Shown here: one piece after another, positions 4,628-25,137 of the stretch
Position numbering within the stretch: position 1 is the stretch's first letter
Layout of the letters: every line of letters starts with the position of its first letter
Source: Actinomycetota bacterium
Lineage (GTDB): Bacteria > Actinomycetota > Actinomycetes > Actinomycetales > Microbacteriaceae
Reading direction: 5' to 3'
Assembly: GCA_009699665.1 (NCBI GenBank)
Contig: WLNS01000002.1
Coordinates: forward strand, 1 to 38,351
DNA length: 38,351 bases
The notes under the pieces: generated by a model
Databases searched by the model: none
What the model saw: only the letters and a program-made list of their open reading frames with translations
Told to the model about the DNA's origin: nothing
Made by a program: the position numbers and the translations under genes

Positions 4628-5206
4628 CTAGGCACCTGTCGTGTTTGGCGTGATTCCCATCGGCGAAACAATGGCGGCCCACGCCCACTCGGTAGCTTTT
4701 TCGGCAGACGGCAACGGCTTCATGCTGATCCACTCGCGAATAACACCCAGCACGGCACCCGCGATGCTCGCGGCGGCAATGTTTACGGGCACGGCCAGGG
4801 CTTTTTGGGCTTCCGGCTGACTCAGTCCAAGCGTGGCCAAGCGCGCCATGCGATCGGTAAGCCGCGCAACGATGACGGGCGAGCCAGACGAGCTGAGCAG
4901 TGTGCGATAGAGACCAACGTTGTCGCGAACATGGGACAAAAACTTGTAAATGGTGTCGCGAGAATCTGCTTCCTGAGCTGATTCGTTCACCGATTCAAGG
5001 TGAGCTGACGCTTGCTCGGCAAAACTATCAAGCGCGTCGGCGAGCAGCGTCTCTTTGTCGGGGTAGTGCTGATAGAACGTGCTGCGGTTGATCCCGGCAG
5101 CCTCGGCGATGTCTGACACCGAAAGGTGAGCAAACTCGCGTTCTCGACACAGCTCAAGCAGGGCGGTCTGCATGCTGGTTCGCGTGCGCAAGATTCGGGG
5201 GTCCAC
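4628..5206 (-). CDS. TetR-family transcriptional regulator
   Basis: A 192-residue TetR/AcrR-type repressor. The N-terminal helix-turn-helix reads LSVSDIAEAAGINRSTFYQHYPDKETLL (about residues 24-52, quoted as two adjoining pieces of one motif: LSVSDIAEAAGI and NRSTFYQHYPDKETLL). The C-terminal ligand domain is not assignable. GTG 5206 is chosen because GGAAAAG lies 5-11 bases upstream. It is divergent from the MMPL transporter gene with a 143-bp shared intergenic region, the usual arrangement for a local repressor of an efflux or lipid-export pump. It converges on the ABC1 kinase gene. Confidence 0.9.
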   Translation of the reverse strand: MDPRILRTRTSMQTALLELCREREFAHLSVSDIAEAAGINRSTFYQHYPDKETLLADALDSFAEQASAHLESVNESAQEADSRDTIYKFLSHVRDNVGLYRTLLSSSGSPVIVARLTDRMARLATLGLSQPEAQKALAVPVNIAAASIAGAVLGVIREWISMKPLPSAEKATEWAWAAIVSPMGITPNTTGA

Positions 5207-18288: not shown

Positions 18289-20432
18289 ACCCGCAATCCC
18301 CGCAAGAAGAGCCGAAAAGTGCTCTCGAACAGTTTGGGATAAACCTCACCGAGCGAGCCCGAAACGGCAAGCTCGATCCCGTGATCGGCCGTGACGCCGA
18401 AATCAGACGGGTGAGCCAAGTGCTGACCAGACGAACGAAGAACAACCCCGTGCTGATTGGTGAACCCGGCGTGGGTAAGACTGCCGTGGTCGAGGGCCTG
18501 GCCCAGCGCATTGTCGCGGGAGACGTGGCCGAGAGCCTCAAGGACAAGCAGCTCGTCGCTCTGGACATTGGTGCCCTGATTGCTGGCGCAAAATTTCGGG
18601 GCGAGTTTGAGGAACGCCTCAAGGCAGTGCTCGCGGAAATCGACGCCTCCGACGGGCAGATCATCACGTTTATTGACGAGTTGCACACGTTGATGGGCGC
18701 CGGCGGCGGAGAGGGCTCGGTGGCAGCAGCCAACATGCTCAAACCCATGCTGGCCCGCGGCGAGCTGCGGCTGATCGGGGCGACCACGCTCGACGAGTAC
18801 CGCCAGTTCATTGAGAAGGATGGGGCGCTCGAGCGTCGCTTTCAGCAGGTCTTCGTGGGCGAGCCGAGCGTCGAAGACACGATTGCTATTTTGCGCGGAC
18901 TCAAGGAGCGTTATGAGGCGCACCACAAGGTGGCCATCGCCGATAATGCCCTCGTGGCCGCGGCGTCGCTGAGCAACCGATACATCACCTCACGTCAGCT
19001 GCCCGATAAGGCCATCGACCTGATCGATGAGGCGGCGAGCCGACTTCGCATGGAGATCGATTCGGCACCGGTAGAGATCGACGAGCTTCGCCGAGGCGTT
19101 GATCGGCTCAAGCTCGAAGAGTTGGCGCTCAAGAAAGAAAAAGACGACGCCTCCAAGCAGCGATTGGTCAAACTGCGAGAAGACTTGGCTGAGCGCGAAA
19201 GCAAGCTCGGTGAGCTCGATGCCCGCTGGCAGACCGAGCGCGCCGCACTCAACCGTGTGGGCGACCTCAAGGGACGCCTCGATGCAGCGCGCATCCAGGC
19301 CGATCGGGCGCAGCGCGAGGGCAACCTCGAGGCAGCATCGCGACTGCTGTACGGCGAAATTCCCGAACTCGAGAGCGAAGTAGCGGCAGCCGAGAAGGCC
19401 GAGTCGGACACGCCCCTGATGGTGAGCGACCAGGTCACGGCAGCCGAGATTGCTTCGGTTATCGCCGCGTGGACCGGCATCCCGGTCGACCGTCTGACAC
19501 AGGGCGAGACAGAGAAATTGCTGAACCTTGAAGCGGAGATCGGCAAGCGCCTGATTGGCCAGAAGAAGGCCGTGCGGGCAGTCGCCGAGTCGGTGCGCCG
19601 TTCGCGCGCGGGCATCAGCGATCCTGATCGTCCTACCGGGTCATTCCTATTCCTGGGTCCGACGGGCGTGGGCAAGACCGAGTTGGCCAAGGCGCTTGCC
19701 GAGGTTCTCTTTGACGACGAAAAAGCCATGATTCGCATCGACATGAGCGAGTACGGCGAGAAGTTTGCCGTTTCGCGCCTGGTGGGTGCGCCTCCCGGAT
19801 ACGTGGGATATGAGCAGGGCGGACAGCTGACCGAGGCAGTGCGACGGAGACCCTATTCTGTGGTCTTGTTCGATGAGGTCGAGAAGGCCCATCCCGAGGT
19901 GTTCGACCTTCTGCTTCAAGTGCTCGACGACGGTCGCCTCACCGACGGACAGGGACGCACGGTCGATTTTCGCAACGTCATCATGATCCTCACCTCGAAT
20001 CTGGGCAGCCAGTATCTCGTAGATCCGGAACTGTCCGAGGACGACAAAGAGCAAGCAGTGCAGAGTCTTGTGCGCCAGGCCTTCAAACCGGAGTTTGTCA
20101 ATCGTCTTGATGACATCGTCGTGTTTCAGGCGCTGAGCCAAACCGATCTGGGGTCGATCGTCGAGCTCTACATTGATCGCATGCAGACCCGGCTTGCGGA
20201 TCGCCGTCTTGACCTTGCCGTCACTCCGTCGGCCCGCACGTGGTTGGCCGAGCGAGGCTATGACCCGATCTATGGGGCCCGTCCGCTGCGGCGACTCATG
20301 CAACATGAGATCGACGATAAGTTGGCGACTGCCCTGCTGGCCGGAACCGTTCGTGATGGCGATATGGTCACGGTCGACCTCGCCGAGGACGGCCTTACTC
20401 TCGTATCGAACGGCCCGACGCCGACGCCATGA
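18285..20432 (+). CDS. clpB: ClpB-type disaggregase lacking the N-terminal domain
   Basis: A 715-residue Hsp100 ATPase that works with DnaK to extract proteins from aggregates. AAA+ module 1 starts almost at once (residue 35, [10 protein letters not shown]), with Walker A GEPGVGKT (59-66), pore loop KFRG and Walker [10 protein letters not shown]. The ClpB-specific coiled-coil M domain is at about 265-372. Module 2 has GPTGVGKT (458-465), pore loop GYVGYEQGG and VLFDEVEKA. Full-length ClpB is about 850-870 residues; the roughly 145-residue Clp_N double repeat is missing here, resembling the short ClpB form made by internal initiation in E. coli. The M domain excludes ClpA and, by length, ClpC. 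Its 3' end overlaps the convergent methyltransferase gene by 38 bp. Confidence 0.93.
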
Positions 20433-21024
20433 CAACCACGTCGATTGCCTTACGACTGACCCCGTTGTGAGAAACGTCGCGCGTGCGCAGGCCGATTTCT
20501 GACACGACCAGATTCGCCGCCGTAAAAGCGTTGGTCAATTCTTCTGTCGTGGGCAGAACGTCGGCATCCTGAGGTCCGCCGACGCCGTCCGTGAGGTTTT
20601 CGCGGGCGTGCCATACGCCAAACAGCGTGCCACCGGCAACGAGCTGGCGACCGGCATTGACAATAGCGGCAGCAAGCTCGGGGGCGGGAATCTGCAGGTA
20701 AGCAATGACCACGAGGTCTACCGGCGCGAGCAAGAAATCCTAATTCGAGTTTGCCTCAGCAACGTGGCCGTGAAAACGATTGCCGAGGCTGAGTTCTGCT
20801 GCACGTTCCAGAGACTTGCTCACCGCCACGCGGGAAAAGTCGAGGTTCTCGGCCACCCAGCCGCGCTGCGCAAACCAGAGAGCGTGTCGGCCCTCACCGC
20901 CAGCCACGTCGACCATACGGCCCGCCGGCAGAGCAGAGAGGTACTCCTCAACAAAAGTGTTCGGCTGCGGTGACCAGACCGACTCAACGGTGGCGTAACG
21001 GTCATCCCATTCGCGGGCATCCAT
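20395..21024 (-). pseudogene. Class I SAM methyltransferase interrupted by an in-frame TAG
   Basis: From ATG 21024 the frame gives residues typical of a small class I methyltransferase: WDDRYATVESVWSPQPN, then the SAM motif MVDVAGGEGRHALWFAQRGW and the following acidic-strand region VAENLDFSRVAV. It stops at TAG 20742-20740 after VAEANSN. The same frame then continues without shift: DFLLAPVDLVVIAYLQIP (motif IV), GGTLFGVWHARENL and [13 protein letters not shown], to TAA 20397-20395. Rejoined it is about 209 codons, the normal family size. One base change (for example TGG or CAG to TAG) explains it. It may be a recent pseudogene, a sequencing error, or stop readthrough. It is 15 bp downstream of the rhodanese lipoprotein gene on the same strand. 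Confidence 0.85.
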
Positions 21025-21039
21025 GATGGCGTTTGGCCG

Positions 21040-21429
21040 CTAGCCGGTGACGACGGTGAGGCCGGTGGTCTTCGCCGCCTCATCAACACTGCCGAGGTTT
21101 TGGACGTTGGTGAATCCCATGCTCGCCATCATGTCGAGGGCCTGGCCGGCGAGATTGCCCGAGCGGCAGTAGACCACGTAGTGAGCCGCCTTGTCGAGCA
21201 CGCCGATAGCCTGCATGAATTCCTCGCCCTGCCAGTTGATATTCACGGCACCCGCAAGATGGCCGGCGGCAAAGTTCTCCGGCGTGCCCACGTCGATAAC
21301 AATCGTGTCGGCGGTGAAGTCGATGGCGGCCATGGGCGCGTTACTTCCGGTTGGCGCACAGGCGCTGAGGCCAAATCCCGCCGCGCCGAGGGTTGCGGCG
21401 ATCGCCAACGCGGTGATGATTCGCTTCAT
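21040..21429 (-). CDS. Rhodanese-domain lipoprotein
   Basis: A 129-residue exported single-domain rhodanese (sulfurtransferase). The signal peptide MKRIITALAIAATLGAAGF ends in lipobox LSAC, so Cys24 would be lipidated and the domain anchored outside the cytoplasmic membrane. The rhodanese fold shows IVIDVGTPENFAAGHLAGAV and the active-site loop YCRSGN with catalytic Cys88. AGAGG lies about 10 bases before ATG 21429. It is divergently transcribed from a CsoR/CstR-like repressor across a shared 61-bp region full of TACCC/GGGTA repeats, so it is likely to be co-regulated with the right-hand sulfur genes. Confidence 0.92.
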   Translation of the reverse strand: MKRIITALAIAATLGAAGFGLSACAPTGSNAPMAAIDFTADTIVIDVGTPENFAAGHLAGAVNINWQGEEFMQAIGVLDKAAHYVVYCRSGNLAGQALDMMASMGFTNVQNLGSVDEAAKTTGLTVVTG

Positions 21430-21445: not shown

Positions 21446-21476
21446 ATACCCCCTAGGGTATACTCAGTCTATACCC
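21446..21476. promoter_or_regulatory. Probable CsoR/CstR-family operator, two overlapping inverted repeats
   Basis: Three half-sites alternate. ATACCC (21446-21451) pairs with GGGTAT (21456-21461) across 4 bp, and GGGTATA (21456-21462) pairs perfectly with TATACCC (21470-21476) across 7 bp. TACCC/GGGTA arms are the known signature of CsoR/RcnR/CstR-type operators. TATACT at 21459-21464 is a near-consensus -10 for the rightward gene and lies inside the repeats, so binding would block transcription. The leftward rhodanese gene starts 17 bp away. Confidence 0.8.
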
Positions 21477-21490
21477 ACGAAAGGTGAATC

Positions 21491-21748
21491 ATGAGACTAC
21501 CTGCCGAAGAACTAAAAAAAGCTCGCAACCGGCTCGTTCGTGTGCAGGGTCAAATTGGCGGCCTCGTGCGCATGATCGACGAAGGTCGCGACTGCACTGA
21601 GATTCTCACTCAGCTGGCTGCCGCGAGCACGGCACTGGATCGCGCCGGGTTCAACATTATTGCCACCGGAATGAGTCACTGTGGTACCGGTCCCGAGGGC
21701 GACATGAATCGCGATGCTCTCGAAAAAGCCTTCATGTCGATGGCGTAG
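21491..21748 (+). CDS. CsoR/RcnR-superfamily repressor, probably CstR-like (persulfide sensor)
   Basis: An 85-residue all-helical DUF156 repressor. The family core is visible: KARNRLVRVQGQIGGLVRMI, Cys35 in GRDCTEILTQLAA, and Cys64 in GMSHCGTG. Copper-sensing CsoR proteins use Cys-His-Cys, with the His four residues before the second Cys; here that position is Gly60, leaving only the two cysteines (His63 is adjacent to Cys64). A two-Cys pattern with linked rhodanese and CoA-disulfide-reductase genes suits a persulfide/sulfide sensor of the CstR kind better than a copper sensor. GAAAGG precedes ATG 21491. The upstream TACCC/GGGTA operator is presumably its own target. Copper sensing is not excluded. 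Confidence 0.85.
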   Translation: MRLPAEELKKARNRLVRVQGQIGGLVRMIDEGRDCTEILTQLAAASTALDRAGFNIIATGMSHCGTGPEGDMNRDALEKAFMSMA

Positions 21749-21790
21749 CGAGCCAGACACATCCGACGCAAAAAAGGAGAGGTGAAAACC

Positions 21791-23449
21791 GTGAAGACAA
21801 TCATTATCGGTGGGGTGGCCGGCGGCATGTCGGCAGCGACGCGTCTGCGCCGACTCGACGAGCACGCCGACATTACGGTCTACGAACAGGGCCCCCACGT
21901 GTCGTTTGCGAACTGCGGCCTGCCTTATTTCATTGGCGACGTTATTGCGCAAGAACAGAGCCTGCTCGTGCAAACCCCCGACGCGCTGTTGCGTCGATTT
22001 CGACTCTCGGTCAAGGTCAACACTCGTGTGGTGCAGATCGACCTGGCATCGCGCACCATCACCGCACGTGATGTACTCACCGGAGAAGAACTCAGCGATA
22101 CCTATGACGCGCTCATTCTCTCGCCGGGTGCCCATCCCCGCGTGCTCGACATTCCGGGGGCTGAGCGCGCCTTCTCGCTTCGCGATGTGCCTGACGCGGT
22201 TCGCATTAAAAGCGCGATCGACGAAAAACAAGCCACGACGGCGGTTATTCTCGGCGGCGGATTTATCGGCGTTGAAATGGCAGAGAACCTGCGGCACCGC
22301 GGGCTGCACGTCACGATTGTGCAGTCGGGTCACACAATTTTGCCGCAGTTCGATCCCGAAATGATTGAGCCTTTTCACGCGTCGCTGCGCGCCAATGGCG
22401 TGAATATTATTCTGGGCCGAACCGCGACCGAGATTACCCACGATGAGGTTGTGCTCACCGACGGCAATCGCCTCCCGGCCGACCTCGTGATTTCGTCTAT
22501 CGGGGTGGTGGCTGATGTCGTGCTGGCCGAAGAAGCCGGATTGCGGTTATCTCCCGCGGGCGGCATCTGGGTCGATGAGAATCATCGCACCAGCGACCCC
22601 GCTATTTACGCTGTTGGTGACGCTGCGGCCAAACACAGTGACCTCACTGGCCAGGATCAGATGGTGTGGCTGGCAAACCTCGCCAACCGACATGGTCGTG
22701 CAGTTGCCGATGTCATTGCGGGAAAGCCCAGCCCGGAACACGCCAGTCAGGGAACGGGCATTATTGGAGCCTTTGGAATGGTCGTCGCCGTGACGGGCCT
22801 GACCGAAAAGGCCGCCCTCGGTGCGGGAATACCGATTCTGGTGGCTCACGCGCATCCGAGCTCTCACGCGGGCTACTACCCGGGCGCGGCGACCCTGGCT
22901 CTCAAAATTGTTTTCGCGCCCGACACGGGCCGCATTCTCGGGGCCCAAGCAATGGGAACCGATGGAGCAGATAAGCGCATCGACGTCTTGGCCACCGCAA
23001 TCTATGCCGGGCTCACCGTTGATGACCTGATGAACCTCGAGTTGGCCTACGCCCCCCAGTTTGGATCGGCCAAAGACGCCGTCAACCAGCTCGGCTATGT
23101 CGCAAATAATGTGTGGCATAAGCGAACACCGAGTGTGCAATGGCATGAACTCGACGCGCGCCTTGCCGAAGGCGCGACCCTGATTGACGTGCGAACGTCG
23201 GCTGAAAACGAAGCGGGCGATATTCCGGGCGCAATTCTGATACCGGTGGATGAACTGCGATCGCGCCTCGACGAGATTCCTGACGGCGAGGTCATTGTGC
23301 ACTGTCGGGTGGGCCAGCGCGGACATACCGCCGCCCAGGTGCTGCTGCAGAACGGCAAGAATGCCCATAACCTTGACGGAGGTTGGCTTACCTGGCGCGC
23401 TGGCATGGACGCTCGCGGGCGCGCACAATCGATGCTCACTCAGCAATAA
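21791..23449 (+). CDS. CoA-disulfide reductase/persulfide reductase with C-terminal rhodanese
   Basis: A 552-residue fusion. The FAD/NAD(P)H pyridine-nucleotide-disulfide reductase part begins KTIIIGGVAGGMSAATRLRR and has the single active cysteine Cys42 in SFANCGLPYFIGD, the CoADR/Npsr motif. The NAD site is AVILGGGFIGVEMAENLRHR and the second FAD motif is IYAVGDAA. After a dimerisation domain, a rhodanese domain (about 455-545) carries LIDVRTSAENEAGDIPGA and the loop HCRVGQRG with catalytic Cys505. Such CoADR-RHD proteins reduce CoA- or low-molecular-weight persulfides and polysulfide. GTG 21791 gives the canonical N-terminus with AGAGG 8 bases upstream; GTG 21782 is an alternative. It is part of the sulfur-responsive operon. 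Confidence 0.93.
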   Translation: MKTIIIGGVAGGMSAATRLRRLDEHADITVYEQGPHVSFANCGLPYFIGDVIAQEQSLLVQTPDALLRRFRLSVKVNTRVVQIDLASRTITARDVLTGEELSDTYDALILSPGAHPRVLDIPGAERAFSLRDVPDAVRIKSAIDEKQATTAVILGGGFIGVEMAENLRHRGLHVTIVQSGHTILPQFDPEMIEPFHASLRANGVNIILGRTATEITHDEVVLTDGNRLPADLVISSIGVVADVVLAEEAGLRLSPAGGIWVDENHRTSDPAIYAVGDAAAKHSDLTGQDQMVWLANLANRHGRAVADVIAGKPSPEHASQGTGIIGAFGMVVAVTGLTEKAALGAGIPILVAHAHPSSHAGYYPGAATLALKIVFAPDTGRILGAQAMGTDGADKRIDVLATAIYAGLTVDDLMNLELAYAPQFGSAKDAVNQLGYVANNVWHKRTPSVQWHELDARLAEGATLIDVRTSAENEAGDIPGAILIPVDELRSRLDEIPDGEVIVHCRVGQRGHTAAQVLLQNGKNAHNLDGGWLTWRAGMDARGRAQSMLTQQ

Positions 23450-23494
23450 CCGACCACGAAACCCGGCGAACAAACCCAACGAAAGGAAAACTAC

Positions 23495-23614
23495 ATGTGC
23501 AAGCGCGTTGAATGTGACAAGTGTGGCAAGCCCACCTGGGAAGGCTGCGGAGAGCACATCGAAGAGGCACTCGAGGGCGTTGCCCCCGCAGACCGCTGCC
23601 AGTGCGAGAAGTAA
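23495..23614 (+). CDS. 39-residue cysteine-rich small protein
   Basis: ATG 23495 is preceded by GAAAGGAAAA (23481-23490) and reads 39 codons to TAA 23612-23614. The protein has six cysteines: Cys2, a C-D-K-C pair (7 and 10), Cys18 in GCGEH with His21, and a C-Q-C pair (35 and 37). The pattern suggests a small zinc- or iron-binding ribbon. It resembles short hypothetical proteins that I recall beginning MCKRV-C-CGKPTW in other actinobacteria. It is last in the operon with the CsoR-like repressor and the CoADR-rhodanese gene (45 bp gap), so a role in sulfane-sulfur or metal handling is inferred. The function is not established. Confidence 0.8.
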   Translation: MCKRVECDKCGKPTWEGCGEHIEEALEGVAPADRCQCEK

Positions 23615-23628
23615 TCTGACGCCGCGAC

Positions 23629-25137
23629 CTACTTCGGAAGTGTCAGGATTCCATCCAGGCGTCGAGCAACGCTTGAATCTGCGTCGCGGAGTTCTTCGGG
23701 AAGAATGAAATCAGGAGCGTCTTGCCAAGCGAGAGGCCGAAGGAATCGGCGCATTGCTGTGATGCCCACAGACGTGTGAATTGTGTTTGTAGACGGCCAC
23801 GGTCCACCGTGGTGTTGCGCCCAACTAACCCGCACTCCCGTGGGGAAGCCATTGAAGACCAGTCGCCCGGCCCGCGGTTTCACTACATTGACGAGCTCAC
23901 GGACGAAGTCTGCGTCGTCGGTCTGATAATGAATCGACGCTGTCAATGACGAGGGAATGTTCTCAAGTGCCGCAAACAAGTCGCTATTTCCCTCGTAACG
24001 CACCGCCATTATTAGTGGCCCGAATGCCTCCTCGGCGTGACCGGGCGTGAGGTCAGAGGCCGCCACGCTAAGAATGGTTGGTGAGACAAAGAATCCCTCG
24101 GCGCCTGGCGCTTGGCCCTCAGCGACGACAGAGACGCCTGATTCGGTTGACATGCGCAGTCTGGCACCCGCGTAGGAGTCATGCACCCGTTCGTTCAAGA
24201 GGACGGCGGCGTCTGCCTCGACGAACTTCGCAGCAAGATCAGTCAAAAATGCATCGCCCAACTCGCCTGTGGGAATGAATGCGAACCCGGGCTTCGTACA
24301 CAGCTGTCCGGAAGAAGCTATGACGGACGTGGCAAGCCCCGTAGCAATCTCGTCGGATCGGGCTAAGAGCGCGGCTGAGGTTATAACGAGCGGATTCATA
24401 CTGGAGAGCTCGCCATAAAACGGGATGGGCTCATCCCGCATGTCGATGATGGCTTGAAGGCGCTTACCCGTGTCTAGTGAACCAGTAAAACCAACGGCGC
24501 TAATGGCGGGTTCCGCAACCAGGGCAGCACCGGCTTTTTGCCCATAAACGATGCCTATTGTTCCGTCAGGTGCGCCAAACTCGCGGCAGGCCCGTTCCAT
24601 AGTTGCGAAAACTGCTGCGCATGTCAGTGGGTGCGCACTATGGGCCTTGGCGACGACGGCATTTCCGGCCGCGAGAGCAGAGGCCGTGTCTCCACCCGGA
24701 ACGCTGAATGCAAAGGGGAAGTTACTCGAGCCAAACACCGCGACCGCGCCCAGAGGAACAAGGAGCCGTCGCACGTCTGGACCGGGCCCGAGGGGAGTTG
24801 TTCCGGCGTGATCGATGGCAACCTCAAGAAAGCTTCCTTCACGGACGGCTTCTGAAAACAACTGAAATTGGAAGACGGTCCTCGTCAACTCACCGTTCAG
24901 CCGGACATCTGTCAAACCCGTCTCGGCCATTGCCGTGGGGATGAGGACTTCACGGTCTGCTTCGAGTGCTGCGGCAATGGCGTCGAGTAGGTCGGCGCGA
25001 CGAAGGCGGCCAATTGCGGCCAGCTCCTTTGCCGCAGTCGCGGCACGGTGTGAAATAGCGGCGACTTCCGCGTCACTCGTGACCGCCAAATCTGTCGCCT
25101 CAGTTGCTCCGGTTCTCGGGTTTGTTGTCGTAATCAC
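23629..25137 (-). CDS. Aldehyde dehydrogenase, alpha-ketoglutarate-semialdehyde type
   Basis: A 502-residue NAD(P)-dependent aldehyde dehydrogenase. The nucleophile Cys280 lies in ASSGQLCTKPGF and the general base Glu243 in FYGELSSMNPL; both contexts are those of 2,5-dioxovalerate (alpha-ketoglutarate semialdehyde) dehydrogenases. VFGSSNFPFAFSVPGGDTAS forms the cofactor region. The enzyme would oxidise alpha-ketoglutarate semialdehyde to 2-oxoglutarate, the last step of non-phosphorylative pentose or sugar-acid routes. GTG 25137 follows AAAGAG. It is the last gene of the long minus-strand catabolic cluster, 53 bp after the LacI gene, and its end converges on the sulfur locus. The precise substrate is inferred from family and context. 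Confidence 0.88.
   Translation of the reverse strand: MITTTNPRTGATEATDLAVTSDAEVAAISHRAATAAKELAAIGRLRRADLLDAIAAALEADREVLIPTAMAETGLTDVRLNGELTRTVFQFQLFSEAVREGSFLEVAIDHAGTTPLGPGPDVRRLLVPLGAVAVFGSSNFPFAFSVPGGDTASALAAGNAVVAKAHSAHPLTCAAVFATMERACREFGAPDGTIGIVYGQKAGAALVAEPAISAVGFTGSLDTGKRLQAIIDMRDEPIPFYGELSSMNPLVITSAALLARSDEIATGLATSVIASSGQLCTKPGFAFIPTGELGDAFLTDLAAKFVEADAAVLLNERVHDSYAGARLRMSTESGVSVVAEGQAPGAEGFFVSPTILSVAASDLTPGHAEEAFGPLIMAVRYEGNSDLFAALENIPSSLTASIHYQTDDADFVRELVNVVKPRAGRLVFNGFPTGVRVSWAQHHGGPWPSTNTIHTSVGITAMRRFLRPLAWQDAPDFILPEELRDADSSVARRLDGILTLPK

Follow-up and report, generated by a model that had tools for sequence, protein, structure and literature searches.

The stretch of DNA analysed here as a whole (the window, 38,351 nucleotides) carries, behind a set of sulfur genes, a reading frame of only 39 residues that is rich in cysteine, and the question raised by this locus is whether so short a frame is a gene at all and, if it is, what its product does next to enzymes of reactive sulfur. 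The original prediction described a six-cysteine frame with a regular C-x2-C, C-x2-H, C-x-C layout, a good ribosome site and a place at the end of a sulfur operon. All of these points agree with what is found at the locus, whose features are as follows.

21040..21429, minus strand: rhodanese-domain protein with a lipoprotein-like N-terminus (PF00581, E 1.7e-12), divergent and facing the same operator region
21446..21461, no strand assigned: operator-like 16-bp palindrome ATACCCCCTAGGGTAT, in front of the operon and overlapping a TATACT -10-like hexamer
21491..21748, plus strand: CsoR-family repressor, CstR-like (PF02583, 71.6 bits), with two conserved Cys and no Cu-ligand His
21782..23449, plus strand: CoA-disulfide reductase-like flavoprotein with a C-terminal rhodanese domain (TIGR03385, PF07992, PF02852, PF00581)
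23482..23487, plus strand: ribosome-binding site AAAGGA, also kept in same-genus copies
23495..23614, plus strand: 39-aa Cys/His microprotein, sequence MCKRVECDKCGKPTWEGCGEHIEEALEGVAPADRCQCEK, assigned from the ORF and its conservation
23629-25137, minus strand: aldehyde dehydrogenase gene, downstream of the microprotein ORF and convergent with it

The operon runs from the CsoR-like repressor (85 residues) through the CoA-disulfide reductase-rhodanese to the microprotein ORF. The reductase-rhodanese gene stops at 23449 and leaves a gap of 45 nt, in which AAAGGA lies 7 nt ahead of the ATG, and since the downstream aldehyde dehydrogenase gene is convergent, the microprotein ORF closes the operon. 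The product of the reductase-rhodanese gene matches TIGR03385 with an E of 2.7e-132, yet stays under the curated cut-off of that model. The six cysteines of the microprotein are at positions 2, 7, 10, 18, 35 and 37, and together with H21 they give the spacing C-x4-C-x2-C-x7-C-x2-H-x13-C-x-C. Elsewhere in the window, a SAM-methyltransferase-like gene (20395-21024, minus strand) is present as two ORFs (20740-21024 and 20395-20733), while its counterpart in a related contig (L031) is a single ORF of 209 aa, so that the copy in the window looks interrupted.

First of all, the reality of the gene can be judged from its distribution. Relatives of the microprotein are encoded in 28 of 59 related genomes (the window's own counted), in 65 of 397 genomes drawn evenly across Actinomycetota, the phylum to which this sampling was confined, and in at least 580 candidate stretches on GTDB genome contigs. 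The absence of conserved orthologues in related genomes had been named beforehand as the result that would speak against the gene, and the 28 carriers show the opposite. All four same-genus copies keep both the ATG and the AAAGGA site; in pairwise comparison the differences within the genus fall mainly at codon position 3 and are mostly synonymous, with NG86 dN/dS of about 0.03-0.26. Moreover, 62 copies lie in plasmid records, and among the matches listed nearly all have no annotated feature beneath them, a gap to be read with the incompleteness of the PLSDB gene table in mind. That the ORF is spurious and functionless is scarcely credible: its shortness and the lack of annotation in most of the listed plasmid records would fit, but conservation, purifying selection, the ribosome site and the operator described below all speak against it. 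Judged from these sequence comparisons, the ORF is a genuine gene, conserved in many Actinomycetota and usually overlooked by annotation pipelines, and the earlier suspicion that length cut-offs had hidden it is borne out.

The wider occurrence of the family also deserves description. Two tandem copies (one long-tailed and one short CxC form) or three to four dispersed paralogues are present in some genomes (G015:C1:135640-135936, with L012 and L030; G346; G095), and three family members on MAG contigs labelled Acidobacteria (L051, L081, L084) may reflect either horizontal transfer or mis-binning. Close relatives are encoded on viral contigs of IMG/VR (L111 and L112, both at 5001-5111, and also L113-L115), where neither the operator nor sulfur neighbours were found around the microprotein gene. 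The contigs L111 and L112 have their surrounding genes in common, namely oxygenase-like ORFs and a lysozyme/transglycosylase-like ORF, which suggests that actinobacterial phages may carry the microprotein as an auxiliary gene.

As for known families, none of the 23 members scanned had a match above the curated cut-off in Pfam-A (best E 0.024) or in NCBIfam (best E 0.17), and the microprotein is therefore probably without annotation in thousands of genomes. The CxxH-CxxC small proteins YyzF (PF14116; 12.6 bits against a cut-off of 27, E 0.14) and CxxH_BA5709 (TIGR04129; 12.1 bits against a cut-off of 35, E 0.17) share with it a CxxH-x-E-x-A-L stretch that resembles C18-x2-H21...A25-L26. The likeness is limited to this weak single-stretch match of 10 residues, far under both cut-offs and no better in other members, and membership was rejected; the weak matches to YyzF, CxxH_BA5709, HMA and DUF5651 are taken as chance or remote resemblance. 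The AlphaFold2 model (mean pLDDT 88.5, pTM 0.54) predicts a beta-hairpin, with C7-x2-C10 at its turn, and behind C18 a short helix. No significant hit to the PDB was obtained with this microprotein, either by fold search (Foldseek, best E 1.5-3.0) or by sequence-profile search (best E 0.076 over 24 residues, to a cerato-platanin-like protein). In the open literature searched, no description of the microprotein or its motif was found, and the account of the S. coelicolor-type persulfide circuit names no such small protein (PMC7533328).

The pattern of conservation points to the chemistry of the product. In 23 aligned relatives, M1, C2, C7, C10, W15, G17, C18, G19, H21 and C35 are invariant, and across the family C2, C7, C10, C18, H21 and C35 are essentially so. 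One related copy (L020), left out of this alignment, has lost both H21 and C35 and is degenerate at these positions. In the larger set of 148 distinct filtered sequences, C2, C7, C10, W15 and C18 stand at 100% partly by construction, since the extraction pattern demanded them; H21, G19, C35 and position 37 were left free by that pattern, and H21 and C35 are nonetheless present in 148 of 148. Position 15 is Tyr or Phe instead of Trp in four further loci. Position 37 is Cys in 103 sequences and Gly in 45, and the Gly is nearly always followed by His38. Such alternation between Cys and His would be expected of a metal ligand, and not of a disulfide or of a site that carries a persulfide, so metal binding is likely. 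The metal bound is probably zinc. The Zn or Fe binding proposed earlier is thus plausible, with six ligand-capable positions near-invariant and a seventh alternating between Cys37 and Gly37-His38, and of the possible metals zinc appears the likeliest.

The genes around the family are those of sulfur metabolism. Over 149 loci, the clustered neighbours include CoADR-rhodanese (39), CsoR-like protein (35), small rhodanese (23), thioredoxin (16), persulfide dioxygenase-rhodanese (15), TauE (8) and SQR (6). Most sulfur neighbours lie within 2.5 kb, the reductase gene often only a few tens of bases from the microprotein gene, and in 18 of 19 genomes the microprotein and CoADR-rhodanese occur together (Fisher p 4e-7, over 58 related genomes). 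Beside many copies, however, there is no sulfur gene. Of four plasmid contexts inspected, three contain genes for thioredoxin, MBL-fold hydrolase, TauE and/or rhodanese, and Nocardia pNF2, the fourth, carries a metal-sensitive regulator and a DUF302 gene.

This variety of partners bears on one alternative, in which the metal has only a structural part and the peptide is a zinc-finger adaptor that docks on, assembles or localises sulfur enzymes while carrying no sulfur itself. Every Cys/His position does look like a metal ligand, several different enzymes are encoded alongside, and long forms are frequent: 98 of the 148 sequences exceed 45 aa, 65 of these match a loose hydrophobic/basic C-terminal motif behind a variable linker, and in many long forms the end is FFxRLFGR-like, which would then be a docking or membrane segment. 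However, such a tail is absent from the window protein and from 49 other short members, the enzyme partner varies and stand-alone copies exist, and an invariant Cys2 is hard to account for in a mere scaffold. The adaptor role is therefore unlikely on balance, while deserving serious weight.

The control of the gene can be approached through the operator. In S. coelicolor, the fragment bound by ScCsoR, a repressor that responds to sulfane sulfur, is reported to have the 16-bp consensus ATACC-N6-GGTAT (PMC7533328), and the palindrome of the window fits this consensus. In its exact form ATACCC-N4-GGGTAT it occurs once in the window's genome, at 21446-21461. The overlapping TATACT hexamer (21459-21464, ahead of the repressor gene) was read by eye, and scanning around the operator for a consensus promoter gave no match. 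Across all loci the motif gave 116 matches, against 0 for the reversed control. An exact ATACC-N6-GGTAT lies within 4.5 kb upstream of the microprotein gene in 46 of the 73 loci of the phylum sample, with 27 lacking one in that range, and downstream in a single locus. At 21 of the 73 loci the site is within 125 nt of the microprotein's own ATG, so the association with the operator is independent of co-residence in one operon. Stand-alone copies of the gene often have the operator immediately in front of them. Genome-wide, 17 of the 75 operator sites listed are within 130 bp of a microprotein copy, as compared with 0.01 expected.

In 11 of the 21 own-promoter sites the palindrome spans -14 to +2. 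Each of these 11 reads ATACCCT, and none of the others does. A leaderless mRNA could therefore have TACCCT, which lies 7 nt ahead of the ATG, as its -10 box; the operator, this box and the start codon would then overlap one another. The arrangement in which the operator runs into the start codon, ATACCCTnnnGGGTATG, is seen in L178, L181, L186, L193, L195 and L198, and likewise in L200, L202, L203, L206 and L211.

An apparently leaderless start in some lineages, combined with a short, Cys-rich product close to sulfur genes, recalls cis-acting cysteine-responsive leader peptides, that is, attenuators whose peptide has no function of its own; according to Canestrari et al. 2020, as cited in PMC9094748, the polycysteine leaderless uORFs of mycobacteria are of this kind. 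This explanation is very improbable here. The cysteines are spaced rather than consecutive and are conserved together with H21, W15 and the G-C-G motif, the microprotein gene is the last and not the first of the window operon, the genes after stand-alone copies differ or run convergent, and the dN/dS values point to selection at the protein level. The attenuator uORF was rejected on the spacing of the cysteines, the gene order and dN/dS.

CsoR-family operators resemble each other, so the motif alone cannot tell sulfur from copper. The nature of the linked regulator also bears on which signal is sensed. In 64 genomes carrying the microprotein family, 106 PF02583 regulators were located, and 34 of 75 microprotein copies have such a regulator no more than 5 kb away, as against 0.37 expected from the counts and genome sizes. 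The linked regulators belong to the low-scoring group (32 of 58 linked), and in the high-scoring group none of 48 is linked. In the alignment, all 20 high-scoring regulators fetched show Cys-...-His-x3-Cys, the canonical copper site of CsoR, whereas the 30 linked regulators aligned and that of the window all have Gly, Ser or Ala where canonical CsoR has the Cu-ligand His. The same absence of this His is a mark of CstR, the dithiol persulfide sensor; the nearest PDB chains to the window regulator include 7mq1/7mq2, and 7MQ2 is named as CstR (PMC9774590). In the orphan-type genomes, eight of the nine low-scoring regulators fetched likewise lack the Cu-ligand His and keep the dithiol pattern. The ninth (G437:C68:17662-17844, L247) has operators in front of it and apparently lacks the second sensing Cys too (AAGLREAETD).

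These results bear directly on whether the peptide might instead be a buffer of copper or another soft metal, with a MymT-like role under a metal-sensing CsoR/RicR. Copper systems also use CsoR-family regulators and palindromes with G/C tracts, the ScCsoR site has been noted as similar to the Geobacillus CsoR and RicR sites (PMC7533328), and the peptide is Cys-rich. Nevertheless, the linked CsoRs are His-less and no high-scoring canonical one is linked; 25 of the 75 operator sites listed lie within 2.5 kb of a low-scoring, His-less csoR, and none is near any of 15 canonical csoR genes. The neighbouring genes code for sulfur enzymes, with none recognised as a copper ATPase or chaperone, and the only PF02583 protein found in the window's genome (83% complete) is the His-less regulator of the operon. 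In view of the His-less regulators and the sulfur neighbours, a copper buffer is improbable. A nearby CsoR-family regulator without the Cu-ligand His and a CsoR-type operator in the operon or gene promoter, as a persulfide (CstR-type) regulon should have, were both found, and a controlling CsoR that carries the C-H-C copper site, as a copper-CsoR regulon should have, was not.

Taken together, the evidence favours, with a probability of roughly 0.55, the reading that the microprotein is part of the CstR-type CsoR regulon by which Actinomycetota answer persulfide stress, and is a metal-binding, sulfur-handling member of it. In vivo, its gene appears to be controlled together with reactive-sulfur sensing and the clearing enzymes. 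That the product itself handles sulfane sulfur is put forward tentatively, at a little under even odds, and carriage or buffering of sulfane sulfur is the leading hypothesis for its mechanism. A sulfane-sulfur carrier was among the roles suggested by the original prediction, and the sulfur setting (CstR-like regulator, operator and neighbours) has turned out much stronger than could be known at that point. A rise in persulfides would oxidise the His-less dithiol repressor and release it from ATACC-N6-GGTAT, and the microprotein would then be made alongside the CoA-disulfide reductase-rhodanese or, in other genomes, alongside persulfide dioxygenase-rhodanese, thioredoxin or the TauE exporter. 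The 39-residue core would fold round a metal, most likely zinc, through C7, C10, C18 and H21 and/or C35 and C37 (or H38). Met aminopeptidase would remove the initiator Met, after which the invariant Cys2 would be a free N-terminus and one candidate sulfur acceptor. The zinc-thiolate thiols could take, hold or hand on sulfane sulfur from rhodanese or from low-molecular-weight persulfides, and thioredoxin would reset the sulfur-loaded protein, which might thus serve as a sulfur/zinc buffer or carrier. A broader proposal is speculative and has the odds somewhat against it: a widespread, unrecognised family of zinc-thiolate microproteins, taken up by actinophages too, would serve the persulfide response of Actinomycetota as its dedicated buffer or carrier of sulfane sulfur and zinc, with the free N-terminal Cys2 as the reactive acceptor. 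A precedent for the proposed way of working is metallothionein-3, which binds zinc by way of sulfane sulfur on its cysteines and which thioredoxin resets (PMC12618007). In addition, S. aureus under sulfide stress shows a zinc-limitation response (PMC5480029), which makes the zinc-buffer component reasonable.

Persulfide-sensing regulons are known for their enzymes, and the microprotein, linked to the regulator, sharing its operator and lost from annotation through its small size, would be a missing part of bacterial reactive-sulfur handling. The connection of zinc homeostasis with sulfide stress, which has been noted for S. aureus (PMC5480029), would become directly testable, and the copies with an operator of their own make a simple reporter test possible in actinobacteria.

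Finally, three known systems can be compared with this one. MymT, the copper metallothionein of mycobacteria, is a Cys-rich protein of about 50 aa in the RicR regulon. It resembles the microprotein in being actinobacterial, Cys-rich and under CsoR-family control, but its Cys pattern is different, and the regulators linked to the microprotein have no Cu-ligand His, with sulfur genes as the neighbours. Metallothionein-3 (PMC12618007) is alike in working only: it is a small zinc protein rich in Cys, its thiols bind sulfane sulfur, and thioredoxin resets them. It is mammalian, has many more Cys, and no sequence relationship is claimed. The cst operon of S. aureus with CstR and the ScCsoR-PDO-rhodanese-TauE circuit of S. 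coelicolor (PMC7533328) share with the present operon the dithiol CsoR-family repressor, the ATACC-N6-GGTAT operator and the enzyme set of rhodanese, persulfide dioxygenase, TauE and CoA-disulfide-reductase-like flavoprotein. Of the published accounts consulted on these two systems, none names a Cys/His protein of 39-60 aa, whereas here such a protein is linked, often with its own operator. The system is therefore a known CstR/cst-type regulon with a previously unrecognised conserved component.
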